A DNA stretch of 40,120 nucleotides from a virus. Positions 2 through 14,338 of this stretch are shown here, piece by piece. Numbering within the stretch: position 1 is the first letter of the stretch; the number at the start of each line of letters is the position of its first letter. A model generated the notes under the pieces. That model was given only the letters and a program-made list of their open reading frames with translations. It did not search any database and was not told the origin of the DNA. The DNA is taken from the IMG/VR virus record IMGVR_UViG_3300029319_000138, positions 1 to 40,120 of that record; one strand, written 5' to 3'. The position numbers and the translations under genes were made by a program.

Positions 2-1186
2 GATCACACACTTTCTTTTGAGAATGGTTCCTCCATCCAGTCTAAGGCTTCGGGTAAGCAGTCGGGTCGTTCTATCTCAGCTTCTTTGCTCATCCTAGAT
101 GAAGCTGCATTTATTGAGCACATTGATACTATTTGGGCTGCTGTGGGTCCAACTACTTCTACTGGTGGCCGTGTAGTGTGCCTCTCTACGGTCAACGGTA
201 TTGGTAACTGGTTTCACAAAATGTATACTCAGGCTATGGAGGGTGACAATGGATTTCACCCAATTGATATCAAATGGCAAGAGCATCCTGAGTACAAGAG
301 ACAAAAAGGGTTTGATTGGTTGTACGAACAGATGGAAGCCTGCAATCCCCCGATTATTGTTGATAAGTGGGAGGAGCAAACCAGACGTAAGCACAGTTAC
401 AAAGAGTGGTTACAAGAATACGAGGCCAGCTTTTTAGGCACTGGTGAAACTTATATCGAAGGTGAGATCTTACGCAACTTGAAAGAAAACTGTAGTCAGG
501 ACTACTGGATCAAGTACAACAATAGAATGCGTGTATGGGAGGATCCTCAGCCGAACCATGAATATGTTCTTGCTGCCGACCCTTCAATTGGTCGTGAGCG
601 AGATTACTCAGCCTTCCATATCATTGACATCTATAATGGTAAACAGGTTGCCGAGTTTTACTCCAACAGGACACCAATCAACGAATTCGCCAAGATCATA
701 GCAGATGAGGCTAGGCTTTACAACACTGCGTTTGTGTGTCCCGAAAGAAATGGCATCGGTAACAACCTAATTTACTTCCTTCAGCAGGAACTTGAGTACG
801 AGAATTTGGTGATGGACGACAAGCGAGAGATCGGAATTATGATTACCCAGAAAAATAAGGAGAATTTATTAGCCGACCTTGAGCACAATATTAGGTCAGG
901 TAAAGTTTTAATTAACTCTGACAGGCTGGTTAATGAGCTTTTAACATTCATTATTGACTCGGATACTGGTCGGATTAAGCCTGATACTAACTGTCATGAC
1001 GATTTAATTATGTCCTTTGCCGCTGCAATTAAGATTTTTAATAACTTAAGAGGAAATTCCTTCATAGAAAAGTCGGAAGATGACACTTATATGCCACCAG
1101 CCATCCGTAACGCTCATACATATAAATTGAAGACATCTGCGGATGAATTAACCCAAGAGAACATTGAATGGTTGATAAGAAATTAA
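2..1186 (+). CDS. terL: Phage terminase large subunit, C-terminal two thirds (partial, starts before window)
   Basis: This is the DNA-packaging motor ATPase and headful nuclease that docks on the portal. The reading frame is open from base 2, so the true start lies upstream; the TTG at 86 is only an internal codon. The visible 394 residues begin just before the Walker B motif LLILDEAAFI (acidic pair at residues 33-34). The RNase H-like nuclease follows, with Asp193 in AADPSIG, Glu248 in CPERNG and Asp333 in HDDLIM. The spacings of 55 and 85 residues are close to the 57 and 84 between D401, E458 and D542 of T4 gp17. The Walker A half is missing only because of the window edge. Its end overlaps the portal gene start by 19 bases, which suggests coupled translation. 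Confidence 0.95.
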   Translation, partial: DHTLSFENGSSIQSKASGKQSGRSISASLLILDEAAFIEHIDTIWAAVGPTTSTGGRVVCLSTVNGIGNWFHKMYTQAMEGDNGFHPIDIKWQEHPEYKRQKGFDWLYEQMEACNPPIIVDKWEEQTRRKHSYKEWLQEYEASFLGTGETYIEGEILRNLKENCSQDYWIKYNNRMRVWEDPQPNHEYVLAADPSIGRERDYSAFHIIDIYNGKQVAEFYSNRTPINEFAKIIADEARLYNTAFVCPERNGIGNNLIYFLQQELEYENLVMDDKREIGIMITQKNKENLLADLEHNIRSGKVLINSDRLVNELLTFIIDSDTGRIKPDTNCHDDLIMSFAAAIKIFNNLRGNSFIEKSEDDTYMPPAIRNAHTYKLKTSADELTQENIEWLIRN

Positions 1187-6557: not shown

Positions 6558-6794
6558 GAGCATATCACCACGCTTAAGCGAGTTGAACAGGCGAGTGTAG
6601 AACAATTCACGAAGAGAATCTAATTCTCTCATTACGCTTGTCAGATTTCTAAGGGTGTTCTCGTTTATCTTCTTCTCGTCTTTGATGGCTTTAAGAACAT
6701 CAATGCAGCTATCGATCATATTTTGCTGATCTTTCGTAACCTTGTTGATTGTATCAACTTGTGCTTCTTTCGTAATAATCTCAGAATCGGACAT
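6549..6794 (-). CDS. Small coiled-coil protein, possible UvsW accessory
   Basis: This 81-aa protein is read after the helicase gene; its ATG lies inside the helicase 3' end (14-base overlap), indicating coupled translation. The sequence is almost wholly helical and charged, with heptad-like spacing in INKVTKDQQNMIDSCIDVLKAI and LTSVMRELDSLRELFYTRLF. T4 has a small helical protein, UvsW.1, in the same position behind uvsW. The position matches, but homology at sequence level is not established here. No DNA-binding or catalytic motif is visible. Its 3' end overlaps the plus-strand fibre gene by nine bases. Confidence 0.6.
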   Translation of the reverse strand: MSDSEIITKEAQVDTINKVTKDQQNMIDSCIDVLKAIKDEKKINENTLRNLTSVMRELDSLRELFYTRLFNSLKRGDMLLG

Positions 6795-8166
6795 TGTGCA
6801 CCTCGAACTTTAGTCTCTTATAGTGTTGTATTCTTTGCTTTGAGTGGTTTTCCAGATAAGGTATGCGATCATAGAAGTCGTAGAAATACATCTTATCCTT
6901 ACCGTCTGCTTTACGAATACCTCTCCCTAATCCCTGTAAGGTTGGAACCTCACCTGATAAACCTCTAGCGTTGATCATGTGAGTAATCTCATCAATGCTG
7001 ATACCAGTCTGCATAACGTTTGTGCCGATGATTGTAGCAGCTTTATCGTCCTTTACAAACTTGTTGATGATATCGTATCTACTATCGATATCATCCTTAC
7101 CCTCGATAGTGTAACAATTATCAACCCTTTCTTGTAAGTTCTCAATGTGCTGCAAGTTCTTCACGAGAATTAGAATCTTCGCCTTAGGGTTAGACTGGTA
7201 TATCTTTGATACAATTGTCTTAATCTTGTCGTTACGCCTGTCACAGTTTACCACGTATTGGTCGTAAATATCAAGATAGGATAATCCGTTTTCCACAGAC
7301 GATACGGGCGTGTTATCCACGACCTGAATAATTGGTTTGGCGAGTGCTCCATCCTTGATTAGATCTTCTGCTGTGCGGGTGGTGTAGACAGGGCCGAAAG
7401 CGCCCTCTAGAACCATCCTGGCGTTGATATCCTTTGCCTTCTCCCTTGGAGGGGTAGCAGTAAATGCAAGCCTGTAGGAGGCGTTAGGGAAGCTCTCAAT
7501 GGCTGCTATGGTCGTCTCACCCTTACAGAACTGGTGGGCCTCGTCAACCATAAGGAGTTCTGTTTCGTGTAGGTGCGTGTCAATTATACGCTCAATACTT
7601 TGAACTGTGGATAACATCACCTTACCAGGAACATAACCTTCTCCCGAGTTATAACCAAGGTCTCGAATACCACACTTCTTAAAAAACTCGTAAGTTTGGT
7701 TTAGGATGCCTTTCTCTCTAAAAAGCACAACTGCCGTGATATCTTTTTCGTGCTGTAAAGCTGCTATACATCCAGCCATAATCAGAGTCTTACCTGACCC
7801 GGTAGGACTGTCCACGATAGATCGACGCTTCTTAAGGCATTGGTATATTGCTTTCTCTTGATATTCACGATATTCAAAATTACCGACTGAGGGGATATAA
7901 GGCTCTTGCTCTTCGAGTCTGTTCCCCCACTCAATATCTGTAACCCCTATCTCTTTCAGGTCGGCTACAATGCGTCTGAGAAGGCCAGTCCTAAACTTTC
8001 CGTTAGCTGTAAAATAACGCTTCTTTCCGTCCCAACGCCTCTTTTTGTAAGCTTGCGAGTATTCGTGCCCAGGGACAGGGAAAGAGTATTTCTCCTTTAG
8101 TGCCGAAATTATCTTTGGATTGTCGGTTTCTAACGTGGACGTTAAGTTACCTACTACTATTCGCAT
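6781..8166 (-). CDS. uvsW: Superfamily 2 DNA helicase, UvsW-like
   Basis: This is an ATP-dependent branched-DNA/RNA-DNA helicase of the T4 recombination and late-replication pathway. It has 461 aa against 503 in T4. Helicase motifs appear in order: Walker A SPTGSGKT (residues 120-127), DEAH box MVDEAHQF (208-211), TAT box AFTATPP (near 235), and motif VI GLGRGIRKADGK near the C-terminus. The first ~90 residues carry a basic patch, YKKRRWDGKKRYF, as expected of the UvsW N-terminal DNA-binding domain. It is transcribed opposite to the flanking virion genes and lies directly upstream of a gp26-like gene in divergent orientation. T4 also keeps uvsW near genes 25, 26 and 51. No Shine-Dalgarno sequence precedes the start. 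Confidence 0.92.
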   Translation of the reverse strand: MRIVVGNLTSTLETDNPKIISALKEKYSFPVPGHEYSQAYKKRRWDGKKRYFTANGKFRTGLLRRIVADLKEIGVTDIEWGNRLEEQEPYIPSVGNFEYREYQEKAIYQCLKKRRSIVDSPTGSGKTLIMAGCIAALQHEKDITAVVLFREKGILNQTYEFFKKCGIRDLGYNSGEGYVPGKVMLSTVQSIERIIDTHLHETELLMVDEAHQFCKGETTIAAIESFPNASYRLAFTATPPREKAKDINARMVLEGAFGPVYTTRTAEDLIKDGALAKPIIQVVDNTPVSSVENGLSYLDIYDQYVVNCDRRNDKIKTIVSKIYQSNPKAKILILVKNLQHIENLQERVDNCYTIEGKDDIDSRYDIINKFVKDDKAATIIGTNVMQTGISIDEITHMINARGLSGEVPTLQGLGRGIRKADGKDKMYFYDFYDRIPYLENHSKQRIQHYKRLKFEVHNVRF

Positions 8167-8202: not shown

Positions 8203-8958
8203 ATGAGTAAAAATAAACAAATCGTAGGGAACGCAGGAGACCCAAGAGAGGACGCTTTAAATAGCCTATTTGGAGAAACCCAGGAGGATGGGATATCTAT
8301 TACTGAGCTACCCTCAAGGGGTAAATTTTATGAGGGGTTTCAGGGAGTTGAGGTTGATGCTCTTACCTTTTTAGATGAGCAGAAGATACTTAACTCCAAA
8401 GATGGTAACGTCGATATTGTTTCCAAACTTCTTGATAAATCCATAAAAGGGGTAAACGTAGACGACCTTCTGGCTATGGATAAAATGTATCTCTTAATGA
8501 AGGTGCGGGAGGTTTCCTACGGTGATAATTACGAGTTCAATATTACTTGCCCAGGATGTGGTTCTGAGATCAAGACATCTTTAACACTTTCAGAGCACTT
8601 AAACATGACTCAGGTTCCTGAAGATTTCGAAGACCCTCGTGAGATTGAACTTCCTAAGCTCAAGGTCAAGGCTCAGGTCCGATTCCCTCGGAGTCGTGAG
8701 GAGGTCTTCTTGAAGGACTCTGAGAGCGTATATCAAAATCTCTACAGGTTTGTGGTCTCCATAGACGGGAATATTGATCCGGTATTTATTTCGAAGGCTC
8801 TGAAGCGTATGCATATTATGGACATCAAGAAGCTTGTGAGCGAGATCAACAAGGCCGAATATGGCGTAAACCCCAGGTTCATCTTCGAATGCCCTGAATG
8901 CACCCACACGGAGACAATGGCAATCCCGATGGATGTCAGTTTTTTTTCAGTGAGCTAA
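8203..8958 (+). CDS. 26: Baseplate hub/assembly protein, gp26-like, with zinc ribbon
   Basis: This 251-aa protein matches the gp26-type hub family by pattern: ITELPSRGKFY near residue 32, a helical block ending in MKVREVSYGDNY, and then a zinc ribbon made of CPGC (Cys116, Cys119) and CPEC (Cys230, Cys233). T4 gp26 is a little shorter (208 aa). AGGTG precedes the ATG by four bases. The last codons run through eight T residues at 8940-8947, and the zero-frame stop follows nine bases after the slippery heptamer. A second product of about 303 aa is expected if ribosomes slip to -1. T4 gene 26 is followed by 51, the same order as here. A chaperone-like role in hub/tape-measure assembly is inferred. 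Confidence 0.8.
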   Translation: MSKNKQIVGNAGDPREDALNSLFGETQEDGISITELPSRGKFYEGFQGVEVDALTFLDEQKILNSKDGNVDIVSKLLDKSIKGVNVDDLLAMDKMYLLMKVREVSYGDNYEFNITCPGCGSEIKTSLTLSEHLNMTQVPEDFEDPREIELPKLKVKAQVRFPRSREEVFLKDSESVYQNLYRFVVSIDGNIDPVFISKALKRMHIMDIKKLVSEINKAEYGVNPRFIFECPECTHTETMAIPMDVSFFSVS

Positions 8959-9113
8959 CTAACAGTTTATCCTCAGAGGATCTTCTTTATCAAGCGTATA
9001 TATTAGTAAATAAGGTAGGCTTGTCATACTCGGACGTAAAAGCCATGAATCAGAAAGAAAGGTTGTCTTTCATTAGTTTTTACACCGAAGAGATAAAGAA
9101 GCTGGAGAGTTAG
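8898..9113 (+). CDS. gp51-like hub assembly segment, probably made as a -1 frameshift extension of gp26-like
   Basis: The open frame runs from 8898, but the ATG there lies deep inside the zinc-ribbon codons and gives a meaningless leader (MHPHGDNGNPDGC). The protein-like part starts exactly after the slippery run at about 8946. It contains 55 residues: a helix around SSEDLLYQAYILVNKVG, then the pattern LSYSDVKAMNQKERL, then SFISFYTEEIKKL. This 'G-hydrophobic-S-x-x-D-h-x-x-M-x-x-x-E-R-h' arrangement resembles the downstream parts of tail assembly chaperone pairs in other phages. Its location after gene 26 matches T4 gene 51, although T4 gp51 is much longer. No Shine-Dalgarno sequence or credible separate start was found, so expression as a fusion is favoured. 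Confidence 0.6.
   Translation: MHPHGDNGNPDGCQFFFSELTNSLSSEDLLYQAYILVNKVGLSYSDVKAMNQKERLSFISFYTEEIKKLES
8940..8946 (+). promoter_or_regulatory. Programmed -1 ribosomal frameshift site (T_TTT_TTT)
   Basis: The heptamer T TTT TTT fits X_XXY_YYZ exactly in the zero frame of the gp26-like gene (codons Phe247, Phe248). The stop TAA is at 8956-8958. A -1 slip reads on through 55 further codons to TAG at 9111-9113. An inverted repeat, ATCCTCAGAGGAT (8969-8981), lies 22 bases downstream and could be a weak stimulator. Confidence 0.7.
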
Positions 9114-9114
9114 C

Positions 9115-10059
9115 ATGAAAATTAACGGAAACGAAGTTACAACACGACACGAAAGACCTACAGTTCTGGGTCCGACCGCTCTTTTGCTGTATTTCATAAA
9201 CGACGGGCAATACACGGACCCACACTCGATTAGTGGGGTTTCTATTTTTGCTGCTTCGGATAATCAAAGCCCTAGCTCCGTGATAACTTCGGACGGTGAA
9301 ATTAAAAACAGTGTCAGCGCCAGTGTCCTCATGCACTTTTCCAACAGTGCTGCCCTGACGACGGACGATGCTTTTAATTCCACGTATTACAGAGCCAACT
9401 CAGACTCGTCAGGTATTTACAAATTGGACACCGGGAAGTATGCCTGTGTGTTAAATGCTCCAGCCGTAGTCCCAAATGGTATATTTAATCTCTCAGGGAC
9501 TAACACTATAAATAATCGAGTTTCCTCCACAGGGGATTATATTGATGTTTGGACGGTGAAGAGGGTTGCAGGCTCTGATCTCGATACAATTGTAAACGAG
9601 TTCACCTTAACTGAGGATAGATTCTTCGGAGTCACCGAGCCTTTACTGTTCCGTGTGGCTACGAGATTGGAGAACAATTACTTGGTTTTAGGATCGAAGA
9701 CAGATCTTAAGTTTACTAATGAGTTCACTCTTGAGAATGCAAATATCGATCGCAGCATTGTAAACCTCTTCAAGCAGTCTTTAGTGACTGATCCAATGAT
9801 TGAGATTTTCAAAAAGAATCAAGATCGTAACCTGGATGCTAGAGTTGAGGTTTCAGGATACTCTGCGACATCCGGTTTAGTCGATACTACCTCAGAGGAT
9901 ACGGTGGTCTTTACTTTTGACACTGATTCCCTTAAGACCCACCCCAAGCTTTTGGATGGTACTTTAGGATCGATGACAGGCACCTATGTTGCTAGACTCA
10001 AGTTTAATGCCTTGAATCAGACCATCATATCAAATGATATGGCCTTTATCATACGCTAG
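9115..10059 (+). CDS. Beta-rich phage protein of unknown function, probably virion or hub associated
   Basis: I do not recognise this 314-aa protein. It starts one base after the gp51-like stop, with GGAGAG ten bases upstream of the ATG, so it belongs to the same transcription unit. The sequence is Thr/Ser/Asn-rich and alternates short strands, without transmembrane segments, coiled coils or a signal peptide. The C-terminal third (VVFTFDTDSLKTHP, GTYVARLKFNALNQ, ISNDMAFIIR) reads like an immunoglobulin-like or beta-sandwich domain. A middle helix, NIDRSIVNLFKQSLV, separates two beta-rich halves. The context suggests a baseplate hub or tail role. Its 3' end overlaps the convergent primase gene by 30 bases. 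Confidence 0.6.
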   Translation: MKINGNEVTTRHERPTVLGPTALLLYFINDGQYTDPHSISGVSIFAASDNQSPSSVITSDGEIKNSVSASVLMHFSNSAALTTDDAFNSTYYRANSDSSGIYKLDTGKYACVLNAPAVVPNGIFNLSGTNTINNRVSSTGDYIDVWTVKRVAGSDLDTIVNEFTLTEDRFFGVTEPLLFRVATRLENNYLVLGSKTDLKFTNEFTLENANIDRSIVNLFKQSLVTDPMIEIFKKNQDRNLDARVEVSGYSATSGLVDTTSEDTVVFTFDTDSLKTHPKLLDGTLGSMTGTYVARLKFNALNQTIISNDMAFIIR

Positions 10060-10986
10060 GTAGGTTAGGTGAAGTTCATCTAGCTTGCCAGTCTTCTCAG
10101 CCTCCGACTTAAGAAAGTCCCCACCCTTCTTGATAAGGATCTCATTCCAGTCTTTGAAGGGTTCAGGAGGCACGACAGTATACAAGTCATCCCTGCGAAT
10201 CCAGTGAGCGAGATTCATGAACTTCTTGCGACCTGTGATGCCAGGACCATCGCTATCAAAGGCACACACGAGAGGACCGGCGTATTGGCTGAGTTGAAGC
10301 ATCTGCTCACGGCTCGTAAAGCAGCTTAGAGTCGTCGTAGCGTTTAACCCTACCGCCTGTAGGCTAAGGCAGTCAAAGACGCCCTCAGTAATGTATAGAG
10401 GCTCCTGAGAGCCATAATCGAAGGGGTATAGGACCTGAGAACTCTTCAGGTTCTTGCAGTTAAGATACTTGGGTTGCTCATCGCCAAGAGCACGGGCCTG
10501 GAAGTAGAAGAGCTTCCCATTGCGGTTAGTGAATGGGATAATCAACCTACCCTTATACTTACCGTCCGTTGCTACATAAAACTTAAAATTACCCACACCA
10601 CGAGACTGAGCAAATGGATGATCCTCCACAACCTTGAAGTTCTCAACCTCATCGAGGTCGGAATCAATTTGATTAGGATCGAACTCTTCGAGGGGGCGAC
10701 GACCCTTGTAGCCTGCCATGAAGTCCTCGAAGACAAACTTCTCGTAAGCCTCTCGGTAACTGCACTTCTCCAAGATGGCGTATAGCTTAAGGAAGTTACC
10801 TACCTCGCCAGTCTTGAAGCACCTCCACAGACCAGTTTCTGTGTTGATGGACATGTGACGCTTGTAGTCATTATCCACAAAGATAGATGGAACTACTAGT
10901 TCTGTATCGTCACTCTGAAGTCTATAATTAGACTGGAACTTATCCAGACAGTATTTTCTAATGAAGGAATCAGAGCCCATGTTCAT
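10030..10986 (-). CDS. DNA primase, TOPRIM type (gp61-like)
   Basis: This enzyme makes RNA primers for lagging-strand synthesis. I take the start at 10986 (MNMGSDSF) or 10980 (MGSDSF); the open frame reaches 11055, but that part overlaps the nuclease gene and looks non-coding. The product is 318 aa, against 342 in T4 gp61. TOPRIM residues are clear: PLYITEGVFD (Glu at 201) and CAFDSDGPG (Asp244, Asp246), followed by FKDWNEILIKKGG, the 'K-D-x-N-x-x-L' close of primases. Residues 37-66 (VDNDYKRHMSINTETGLW, then RCFKTGEVGNFL) align in style with the CHC2 zinc-binding domain, but only one of the expected cysteines (Cys56) remains. The gene is divergent from the nuclease, with start codons practically coincident. 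Confidence 0.82.
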   Translation of the reverse strand: MNMGSDSFIRKYCLDKFQSNYRLQSDDTELVVPSIFVDNDYKRHMSINTETGLWRCFKTGEVGNFLKLYAILEKCSYREAYEKFVFEDFMAGYKGRRPLEEFDPNQIDSDLDEVENFKVVEDHPFAQSRGVGNFKFYVATDGKYKGRLIIPFTNRNGKLFYFQARALGDEQPKYLNCKNLKSSQVLYPFDYGSQEPLYITEGVFDCLSLQAVGLNATTTLSCFTSREQMLQLSQYAGPLVCAFDSDGPGITGRKKFMNLAHWIRRDDLYTVVPPEPFKDWNEILIKKGGDFLKSEAEKTGKLDELHLTYLAYDKGHII

Positions 10987-11764
10987 AAATAGTATTAGTG
11001 CCTCTAAGAGTGACATCATAGACCAGTGCCTGTGGAAATACAGACTGAAATACATCTTGAAGCTGCCGGGATTCGGCTCGAAGAATGAGGATGCTTTGAA
11101 CTTCGGGTCTTTTATTCACAAGATATTTGAACTGGGCTACAAAGAGAAGGACATCAAGTCCTTGTTGAAGATTGCGGAGCAGGAACGTGCGACCTACAAG
11201 GTCCCCTTCCATGAGAATGAAAGGATGAAGTCCTGCTTAGAAAACTTCATTATTTGGAATCAAGGCCTAGGTGAGACTATGTCCACCGAGCAGGTTGTAA
11301 ACGTTCCGATGGATGAGAAGCACGACATCAATTTTGTCGGTGTCATTGACCGTGTAATCAAGGGGAATGATGGGGGTTATCTTGTTATCGACTACAAGAC
11401 ATCCAAGAGGGAGAAGAAGAAAAAGACTCTGATGGATGACAACCAACTAAAAGGTTATGCGTGGGCAATTCACAAGCTTTATGACGTTCCCTACAACAAG
11501 ATTTACTGCGCTCATTACTACCCAGTGACTGGTAACTTCGTTGCTGTGAAGTTTAGTAAGTTCCAGATCGATCGCTGGAAGAAGCAGCAGATTGAAAAGG
11601 TGTGGCGCATTCGCAAGAAGAAGAAGGATGAGTTCTGGGCTCAGGAGAATATCTTCTGCGACTGGTGCGAATACAAGGATGCTTGTCCTAAGTTCAACTC
11701 AGAGTCGGTTGTCTGCCAGCGGATCGATGAGCAGAAAGAACTTAAAAAAGCACAAAAGTCTTGA
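10979..11764 (+). CDS. PD-(D/E)XK nuclease with predicted 4Fe-4S cluster (Cas4/RecB-like)
   Basis: This is a probable DNA exonuclease for recombination or end processing. Numbering from the ATG at 10979 gives 261 aa; an in-frame ATG at 10961 would add six residues. The order matches Cas4/AddB-type nucleases: N-terminal SASKSDIIDQCLWKYR with Cys17, GSFIHKIFE with His47, GVIDRV with Asp124, VIDYKTSK with Asp138 and Lys140, and NQLKGYAWAI with Gln156 and Tyr160. The cysteines Cys227, Cys230 and Cys236 (FCDWCEYKDACP) complete the cluster with Cys17. The C-terminus is Lys-rich. No cas1 or cas2 is nearby, so a CRISPR role is not implied. It faces the primase and ends by overlapping the convergent 54-aa gene. 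Confidence 0.85.
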   Translation: MFINSISASKSDIIDQCLWKYRLKYILKLPGFGSKNEDALNFGSFIHKIFELGYKEKDIKSLLKIAEQERATYKVPFHENERMKSCLENFIIWNQGLGETMSTEQVVNVPMDEKHDINFVGVIDRVIKGNDGGYLVIDYKTSKREKKKKTLMDDNQLKGYAWAIHKLYDVPYNKIYCAHYYPVTGNFVAVKFSKFQIDRWKKQQIEKVWRIRKKKKDEFWAQENIFCDWCEYKDACPKFNSESVVCQRIDEQKELKKAQKS

Positions 11765-12266: not shown

Positions 12267-12656
12267 ATGGAACGAGAGATAGATGCAACTCTGATTCAGA
12301 ATCTAGAGGACTTTGATTATACGTTGACTGAAACATCCTACCTGGGCCTAAAGCCAGGAGATATTGTCCAGCTTACTTATGCAGGCTCACTAAGGTATGG
12401 TTTAGTAGTTTCGTCGAGGAGGACTTCGGACGGGATGTTTCTTTCCTCAAGGAACAATACACTGCTTAATTTTGTGCAGGCAGGGACATTATCTGAGGCA
12501 ATGTTTTCTTTGATGGTAAATAATCTATACAAGAATGAGACTGCTTGTAACTACAATTCCCGAGAAATAATTGGAGCTTTCCTGGGTAAGAGGAACTTTA
12601 GAACCTTCAACGTGGCTAAGATTAGAAATATACTTAAGGTTAATGTAGAGAAATGA
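12267..12656 (+). CDS. Small SH3/KOW-like protein, first gene of tail operon
   Basis: This 129-aa protein is not recognised by family. The centre reads as a small beta-barrel: LKPGDIVQLTYAGSLRYG, then LVVSSRRTSDGMFLSSRN and NTLLNFVQ, like SH3 or KOW folds that start with 'G-D-h-V'. The C-terminal half is helical and basic (GAFLGKRNFRTFNVAKI). There is no membrane segment. Its stop overlaps the start of the tape-measure-like gene (ATGA at 12653), suggesting matched expression and perhaps a tail-assembly role. In T4 the corresponding neighbour of gene 29 is gene 28, but similarity to gp28 is not claimed. Confidence 0.6.
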   Translation: MEREIDATLIQNLEDFDYTLTETSYLGLKPGDIVQLTYAGSLRYGLVVSSRRTSDGMFLSSRNNTLLNFVQAGTLSEAMFSLMVNNLYKNETACNYNSREIIGAFLGKRNFRTFNVAKIRNILKVNVEK

Positions 12657-14338
12657 CATCAAGAGAAGACGTACGGAACGAACTCCTCGATACCCAGAAT
12701 AGATTGGCCACAAATTTAAACAGGTCAATTATTAGGTTAAATTCAAATTTACAAAATTTTGTAAATCCTCTCACTCGACTTAGTGAATCCATAAACCGAT
12801 TAGATAAGACCAATGTCGCTGCTCTTAAGGTCGGTGTCACAAATGAAAAGTTATCTAAGTCTGTAGAGAAAAATAGTAATCTTCTTTCAAGGAATTTAAC
12901 TAGTCTCAACGAGCTTAGGCTCGCAGTTATCGATGGCTTTGGTCGAGGTGTTAGGGTTCAAACGGATGCACTAGACAACCTTACAACCGAAATAGTTGCG
13001 ACCGGCCAGGATGTTACTGCCTTAAATAAGCTTAATTCTGATCTAGTATTATTCACAGGTAACAACATACAGTCTCTTGATAACGCTGCAAGAGTGAATA
13101 AAGAGGTAAGTGATGCTTACGGTGTTAGTAACGACAAGCTCATAAACACCTTAAATTCTTTAAGAGATACCTTGCAGACCGCATCGTTCTTTGGCTCTAA
13201 TGCTGTAGACTCTTTGGGTGAGGTCGCACAGCAGCTTGTAGGTCGTGCTGGAGGAACAGATATCACTAGTGCTCTTGCAACTCTCAACAGGATTCTTGTA
13301 GGAGGTTTAGAGACTGAGAGGACTGCTCAGTTGCTAGGAGCAACCGGAGCCCGTCAAACTCTTGCCGGTGGTGGTAGATTGACTCTTCAACAAGTCTTAC
13401 CAATCTTAGATCAGTTGGAGGCGAGAAGAGATCAACTTGGAGGTGGTAGGTTTGGTTTGGACATCCTGTCACAAACTCTTGGACTCAGCAAAACTCAGAC
13501 TACTGAACTGCTTAACTTGGCTGAAATTGCAAGGCAAGATTTCAAAGTGCAGGATGAGTTAAAGAAGACAACAGACGAAACCTACAACAGCATCGAGAAT
13601 ATTAATAAGAGAGCACAAAACTTCTACGATAACACTGCCATGGGTATGTTAGGGCAGTTGGGTTCAATCAACACTAACCTTTTATTCTTTATGCAGCAGG
13701 CCGTCATGGCTGGCGGCGTCGCCGGTTCTTTACTTGGAGGATCTCGTAGGAGACGGAGGATGACCCCCAGAGAAGAGTTTGACTCACTATTTGAACCTAC
13801 TAGAAGGGGAAACCCCATGACCCGTGAATATATGTCTCTGGGATCAACCCCAAATGCAAGATTTAGAAATTATATAAAGAGAGGCGTGGGTGGCACGGGT
13901 GCTGCGGTCGGTGCCGGTGCTTTATTGGGTTCAGTCCTCCCTCCCAGCATTGGCGGTGTTGATACCGGGGGAGCCATTCAGGGAATGCAGTATGGAGCCA
14001 TGGCAGGAAGCTTTATCCCTGGAGTTGGAACTTTGGTGGGTGGTGGTATAGGTGCAGTTCTAGGCTTAATTGCATCTAACACAGGGAAGAGTGCTGAAGA
14101 GTTAGCCGCACAACGTAGAGCAGCCGATGAAGAGCGACAGAGAAGACGAGCAGAAGAAGCTGCTAGAGATATGAGTAGGCTCGACTTCTTAGCAGGATAC
14201 ATAAGATCGAGAGGGGGTTCTTTCATGACAGACCCTGAAATGAAGTCTCTGTTTGAAGCTATCAAGACAGCGGTTGAGAAAACTGCTAGAAACGCTCCCA
14301 CAGGATCAAACCTCTCGGCAACAAGGAGAGGTCCATAA
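12653..14338 (+). CDS. Tape measure protein candidate (T4 gp29-like role)
   Basis: The product has 561 aa, close to T4 gp29 (590 aa). Residues 1-300 are helical with heptad-like Leu/Ile/Asn spacing (LNRSIIRLNSNLQNFVNPL, INRLDKTNVAALKVG), suggesting a long coiled coil. Around residues 340-380 is a short hydrophobic segment followed by a basic SRRRRRM patch. From about 405 to 480 comes a Gly/Ala-rich segment (GTGAAVGAGALLGSVLPP, GVGTLVGGGIGAVLGLIA) like the membrane-active parts of tape measures. The end is Arg/Glu-rich. It directly precedes a tube-initiator gene, as gene 29 precedes 48 in T4. Tail-length control is inferred from architecture and position. Confidence 0.65.
   Translation: MTSREDVRNELLDTQNRLATNLNRSIIRLNSNLQNFVNPLTRLSESINRLDKTNVAALKVGVTNEKLSKSVEKNSNLLSRNLTSLNELRLAVIDGFGRGVRVQTDALDNLTTEIVATGQDVTALNKLNSDLVLFTGNNIQSLDNAARVNKEVSDAYGVSNDKLINTLNSLRDTLQTASFFGSNAVDSLGEVAQQLVGRAGGTDITSALATLNRILVGGLETERTAQLLGATGARQTLAGGGRLTLQQVLPILDQLEARRDQLGGGRFGLDILSQTLGLSKTQTTELLNLAEIARQDFKVQDELKKTTDETYNSIENINKRAQNFYDNTAMGMLGQLGSINTNLLFFMQQAVMAGGVAGSLLGGSRRRRRMTPREEFDSLFEPTRRGNPMTREYMSLGSTPNARFRNYIKRGVGGTGAAVGAGALLGSVLPPSIGGVDTGGAIQGMQYGAMAGSFIPGVGTLVGGGIGAVLGLIASNTGKSAEELAAQRRAADEERQRRRAEEAARDMSRLDFLAGYIRSRGGSFMTDPEMKSLFEAIKTAVEKTARNAPTGSNLSATRRGP

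Follow-up and report, generated by a model that had tools for sequence, protein, structure and literature searches.

A probable programmed -1 frameshift at the end of a gp26-like gene in an uncultured relative of phage T4

Near the 3' end of a gp26-like gene in an uncultured T4-related virus, a run of eight Ts leads into two different reading frames. One of them stops after a few codons, and the other, shifted by -1, continues almost to the next gene. This arrangement raises the question of whether one protein is made from the gene or two and, if two, how the second frame is entered.

The answer favoured here is a programmed -1 ribosomal frameshift on the heptamer T_TTT_TTT, by which a short and a long form of the protein would be made and would act as a tail assembly chaperone pair. 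We give this reading a probability of roughly 0.87. The evidence comes from the conservation of the slip site, from selection on the second frame, and from the relation of the two forms to gp26 and gp51 of T4.

Layout of the Locus

The window is the whole stretch of DNA that was analysed, 40,120 bases in length. The gp26-like frame ends in the codons GTC AGT TTT TTT TCA GTG AGC TAA. The slippery heptamer forms part of a T8 run (8940-8947), which is the sole run of at least seven Ts on the + strand of the window. The next ATG is found at 9115. A preliminary description had placed the heptamer in the zero frame, nine bases 5' of the stop, and had followed it with a 55-codon -1 frame ending one base before the next gene. 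Both sets of coordinates hold on direct reading. The features are listed in Table 1.

Table 1. Features of the gp26-like locus in the window, and related extensions in other phages
Feature	Position	Strand	Remarks
gp26-like gene, short zero-frame product, 251 aa	8203-8958	+	PF12322 T4_baseplate / phrog_150 baseplate hub
Slippery heptamer T_TTT_TTT	8940-8946	+	Sequence read directly; zero-frame codons AGT TTT TTT
Invariant block TTTTTTTTCAGTGAGCTAAC, 20 nt	8940-8959	+	Slip site through zero-frame stop plus one base
Zero-frame stop TAA	8956-8958	+	Nine bases (8947-8955) between heptamer and stop
-1 frame extension, 55 codons plus stop (9111-9113)	8946-9113	+	C-terminal domain of putative long product; possible counterpart of T4 gp51 C-terminal extension
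Predicted long product, 303 aa	8203-9113	+	Frame 0 over 8203-8946, then frame -1 from 8946
+1 frame extension loci	L040 2493-2740, L041 2496-2760, L045 2517-2800		LIS04, SP-15, GXN1
Under-annotated extensions	L129 2205-2372, L132 2214-2430, L136 2208-2387		Aeromonas phage 65, D506, C48C1

The gp26-like protein matches PF12322 (E 7.7e-18; 65.4 bits against a curated cut-off of 24.5) and phrog_150 (E 2.5e-20), and carries two CxxC zinc-ribbon-like pairs. Its AlphaFold2 model has a mean pLDDT of 80.5. In this model residues 245-251 form a disordered tail, exactly at the slip, which fits a linker, as expected.

Structure searches with the model gave two kinds of match. In the PDB, the best match is the protein YqbN, which is not significant (E 0.62) and which we take to be an XkdN-like prophage tail chaperone. 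Among predicted viral structures, the matches are T4-type hub proteins or subunits (best E 3.3e-16). The extension is helical in a low-confidence model, and a fold search with the -1 ORF modelled alone was uninformative. The short and long forms have a common N-terminal body, as judged by sequence only.

Conservation of the Slip Site

Relatives of the locus were collected in two ways. A scan with gp26 gave 38 related loci, with the junction present in 36, and an independent scan with the extension as query gave 42 related IMG/VR contigs. The alignment set consists of 23 non-redundant sequences, in which the gp26 DNA has a mean pairwise identity of about 68%. No relative turned up when the phage collection was searched at the nucleotide level.

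Conservation of the heptamer and of the -1 phase, which the preliminary description had predicted for an alignment of homologues, is complete. All 36 relatives with a junction in the gp26 scan retain the T8 run in the same phase, along with the zero-frame ending FFSVS* and the -1 frame, and T8 is kept in 42 of 42 contigs from the extension scan. The whole block TTTTTTTTCAGTGAGCTAAC is identical in 41 of these 42 loci; the remaining one has a single A-to-C change that retains the zero-frame Ser. An assembly error was ruled out by the 42 contigs.

In the 23 non-redundant sequences, the invariant block is the longest such stretch of the locus, and the runner-up measures 6 nt. Of the third codon positions in gp26, 98.4% are variable. 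The codon before the slip ends in T without exception in the window's lineage, and the slip Phe codons are always TTT TTT; elsewhere in the gp26-like gene, Phe is encoded by TTT and TTC in a ratio of 150 to 117. At the protein level, the Phe pair of the slip site makes up two of only five invariant columns among 30 gp26 homologues. Going by these alignments, the conservation of the slip site is far beyond chance.

A conserved T run can also serve RNA polymerase. If the polymerase adds one U in T8, a share of the mRNAs will encode the long form in a single frame. Slippage on runs of T or A is known in bacteria. It is also the topic of a review (PMC5009743). The T8 run is a long homopolymer of invariant length, as this explanation would lead one to expect. 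Polymerase slippage, however, requires no codon phase, whereas tandem tRNA slippage needs a T ahead of the two Phe codons, and a T is always found there. Conservation also runs beyond the T run to the stop codon.

The cyanophage-type relatives also bear on the two explanations. They have T_TTT_TTC at the equivalent position in 81 of 81 loci, and no codon other than TCT, AGT or GGT precedes the slip. These relatives thus have six Ts followed by a C, which is short for polymerase slippage, yet they keep the same heptamer phase. Because of the phase requirement and of these relatives, the ribosome is favoured over the polymerase, and we consider transcriptional slippage improbable.

Selection on the Second Frame

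If the second frame is entered only by slippage, it should look like a coding sequence only past the slip. Single-base codon differences were counted pairwise over related sequences, so that the figures give the direction of selection and no probability: in the -1 frame past the overlap, synonymous and nonsynonymous differences number 3118:1065, compared with 766:3545 and 394:3945 in the other two frames, and 5' of the slip the -1 frame has the opposite pattern, 2167:28074. Stops in the -1 frame number 24-39 per sequence upstream of the slip, and there are none downstream.

By these counts, the -1 frame is under protein-level selection only past the slip. This agrees with the preliminary description, in which the frame was said to be nonsense upstream and selected only after the slip. 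The synonymous-rate bias that it proposed to look for in the downstream frame is present from the slip onward.

Alternatively, the -1 frame could be a small gene of its own, encoding a free gp51-like peptide. Translation of such a gene could start inside gp26, or by reinitiation past the gp26 stop. In the window an ATG at 8898, missed in the preliminary description, does open the -1 frame. Cyanophage annotations contain a free 56-aa gp51, and some distant Vibrio phages have a one-base stop-start overlap.

The window's ATG, however, occurs in 6 of 37 sequences and is thus not conserved, and 28 of the 37 lack any ATG, GTG or TTG in the stretch from the last -1 stop to the slip. The loci of the extension scan are similar, 34 of 42 having no -1 frame start before the slip. 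Several cyanophage-type relatives, such as L100, L103 and L116, lack the annotated ATG, and a separate gene would leave the silent-site invariance of the heptamer unexplained. The earliest starts after the slip fall within the conserved domain, mostly beyond its middle.

With so many loci that have no start before the slip, and with later starts falling inside the domain, independent initiation is not the general mechanism. A separate start for the second frame had been named in the preliminary description as a finding that would speak against the shift, and no conserved one was found among the 37 sequences. A start at 8898 was ruled out as a general mechanism, since this ATG is not conserved. 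We regard separate translation as very improbable. In the cyanophage-type loci L104 and L107, a -1 frame stop lies just 5' of the heptamer.

Chance or error, with the second frame being left over, a pseudogene or the product of a sequencing slip in the T run, has a negligible probability: homopolymers are error-prone and the window is a virus fragment, but the same T8 and phase recur in 42 contigs, and the second frame is stop-free and under clear purifying selection.

Proposed Mechanism

The programmed -1 shift put forward in the preliminary description, giving a pair of gp26 and gp26 with an extension, is therefore retained: the heptamer and its phase are conserved, selection on the second frame begins at the slip, and there is no conserved independent start. 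The signal, its conservation and the selection on the second frame can be seen directly in the aligned sequences. From them we infer slippage on the ribosome and a certain efficiency of it.

Tandem slippage would occur on T_TTT_TTT, near the 3' end of the gp26-like gene, the ribosome moving back by one base. The majority of ribosomes would read on to the zero-frame stop and make the short form of 251 aa. A minority would make the long form of 303 aa, with a helical C-terminal extension. The two products would presumably be made in a fixed ratio. Together they would be the tail assembly chaperone pair of a T4-related contractile phage, as gpG and gpGT are in lambda; many short and few long forms would coat the tape measure protein, and the extension would recruit tube subunits. 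The chaperone role is suggested by membership of the family.

Many frameshift sites, though not all, are assisted by a hairpin or pseudoknot 3' of the slip or by a Shine-Dalgarno-like element 5' of it. Single-sequence folding of the RNA 3' of the slip gave no signal of pseudoknot-free structure (z -1.59 to +1.10). Alignment folding downstream of the slip likewise gave no structural signal, with two covarying pairs. Upstream, no strong Shine-Dalgarno-like stimulator was seen.

Directly 3' of the T8 run there are 12 near-invariant bases. Judging from codon reading, double coding largely accounts for their invariance. By the genetic code, C8955T and A8957G would each leave the coding of both frames unchanged (codons read by hand), and neither is seen in the alignments; for this reason double coding does not seem to account for all of it. 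The block CAGTGAGCTAAC may be a linear stimulator of slippage.

Relation to T4 gp26 and gp51

Both T4 gp26 and T4 gp51 match full-length PF12322 (8.8e-64 and 3.9e-52, respectively), and they match each other by blastp (1.7e-6). On these matches the two are paralogues, gp51 consisting of a full-length PF12322 body and a C-terminal extension of about 50 residues. A sequence search of the PDB gave no relative of T4 gp51.

The family phrog_150 has 282 positions. T4 gp26 covers positions 14-235 and the zero-frame product of the window 24-234; T4 gp51 covers 13-280 and the fused product 24-281. By this pattern of coverage, gp26 is the likely T4 counterpart of the short form and gp51 that of the long form.

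By sequence alone, the case for homology between the extension and that of T4 gp51 is weak; position, length and the fused-profile match carry most of it. Adding the extension raises the fused-profile score by 0.2-11.8 bits in 17 sequences, and this gain, only about 5 bits, is higher than that of 1006 out of 1020 shuffles. When the extension was scanned by itself against gp51 families, the matches were not significant, nor was a profile-profile comparison of the two extension families.

T4 differs from the window in that the two forms come from two divergent paralogous genes instead of a shift. The end of T4 gp26, LKEFFELL, still has both Phe residues of the slip site. Genes 26 and 51 are adjacent hub genes, as the preliminary description stated, but they are divergently oriented, so that T4 does not use the shift. 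The same description joined gp26 to a gp51-like protein. The pair of gp26 and a fusion is supported, whereas the downstream frame is not a whole gp51 and would be a counterpart of the gp51 C-terminal extension only.

Each of seven contigs yielded only one PF12322 gene; since these contigs are fragments, the lack of a second such gene is no proof of absence.

It can be imagined that the shift is ancestral for the gp26/gp51 pair in T4-related phages, that T4 resolved it by duplication into a short and a long paralogue, and that the 12 near-invariant bases are a linear, structure-free stimulator in the window's lineage. We think this combined scenario rather unlikely.

Relatives in Other Phages

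Slip sites of the same type are found in more distant phages. The heptamer at the end of gp26 reads T_TTT_TTT in phages pf16 and C48C1. It reads T_TTT_TTC in Aeromonas phage 65, Stenotrophomonas phage Yut3 and Vibrio phage ValKK3, and in all of these phages a -1 extension comes after it.

The canonical heptamer is absent in three Vibrio phages, BX-1, D506 and 207E48.1. The annotations of BX-1 (L131, 2244) and 207E48.1 (L135, 2226) have a one-base stop-start overlap, TAATG, between the gp26-like gene and the small next gene. These two phages may use reinitiation in place of the shift.

The gp26-like genes of Listeria phage LIS04, Bacillus phage SP-15 and Streptococcus phage GXN1 are followed by an extension in the +1 frame. 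A motif, NCC CGA TT, is common to all three near the zero-frame stop, and a +1 shift at the CGA codon is possible.

The annotations of Aeromonas phage 65, Vibrio phage D506 and phage C48C1 give the gp51-like extension only as an ORF of 26 to 34 residues, which is shorter than the -1 frame. The present reading suggests that annotation errors account for the free gp51 genes listed in cyanophages and for those that are shortened or missing in other phages.

Gene Neighbourhood

The genes of the window include terminase, portal and baseplate wedge genes, a gp25-like gene among the latter, with helicase, primase and exonuclease genes set among them. The gp26 region is flanked by a gene for a UvsW-like helicase (6781-8166, - strand) and a primase-like gene (10030-11055, - strand). 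In T4, uvsW is likewise close to genes 25, 26 and 51. The gene directly 3' of the pair (9115-10059) encodes 314 aa of no recognised family. A weak tape-measure/lysin match is found at 12653-14338.

The gp26-like gene of phages SP-15, LIS04 and BRock comes after the tail tube gene (labelled "tail protein" in BRock) and before a large gene, for which the label is tape measure in LIS04, endolysin in BRock and putative tail protein in SP-15. This is the classical position of a chaperone gene.

Comparison with Known Systems

T4 gp51 and gp26 are listed as hub assembly chaperones; assembly requires gp51, which is not part of the particle (PMC3004832). In the same review, from 2010, gp51 is described as essential and of unknown function. 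Two later papers (PMC10885494, PMC12846349) credit Vladimirov, Gautam and Davidson (2022, Virology 566:9) with identifying the tail assembly chaperones of T4-like phages, so the window's pair would belong to a known kind of system. PMC10885494 adds that some T4-like phages have a short gene and a longer fused gene in place of frameshifting.

The cyanophage-type gp26-gp51 locus, as in Synechococcus phage Bellamy and its relatives, has the same plan, the heptamer ending gp26 and a -1 frame of about 60 codons following it. It differs in the heptamer, T_TTT_TTC, and in a zero-frame stop one codon later. Its extension is far closer to known gp51 families (phrog_634, E 1.6e-25) and is annotated as a free gene.

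In the chaperones of the Vandenendeviridae and Andersonviridae, as in phage Adele, a -1 shift takes place on a T-rich GTTTTT motif that ends the short chaperone gene (PMC12846349). These belong to another phage group, and the likeness considered here is in slip motif and position.

The comparison with the tail assembly chaperone pairs of lambda, P2 and Mu, already drawn in the preliminary description, is the best reading of the locus. In lambda, the tape measure is bound by gpG and its -1 product gpGT, which also recruit the tube subunits; both are absent from the virion (PMC5009743). On the pattern of lambda, P2, Mu and other long-tailed phages, the locus would yield a short protein together with a less abundant longer one built on the same body. 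A -1 shift close to where the first frame ends would give the longer one its C-terminal domain, and a role in tail assembly would be shared. In the window the body belongs to the T4 gp26 type (PF12322) and showed no relation to lambda gpG, and the slip site is T_TTT_TTT. A further difference is that no tube or tape-measure gene was recognised immediately beside the pair in the window.

Frameshifted tail chaperone pairs are already known from other tailed phages, and the site in the window is a well-supported further case. It lies in an uncultured T4-related lineage and is tied to gp26 and gp51 of T4. It thereby makes a prediction testable, namely that T4 gp51 is the long form of such a pair and that its C-terminal extension is the part absent from gp26.
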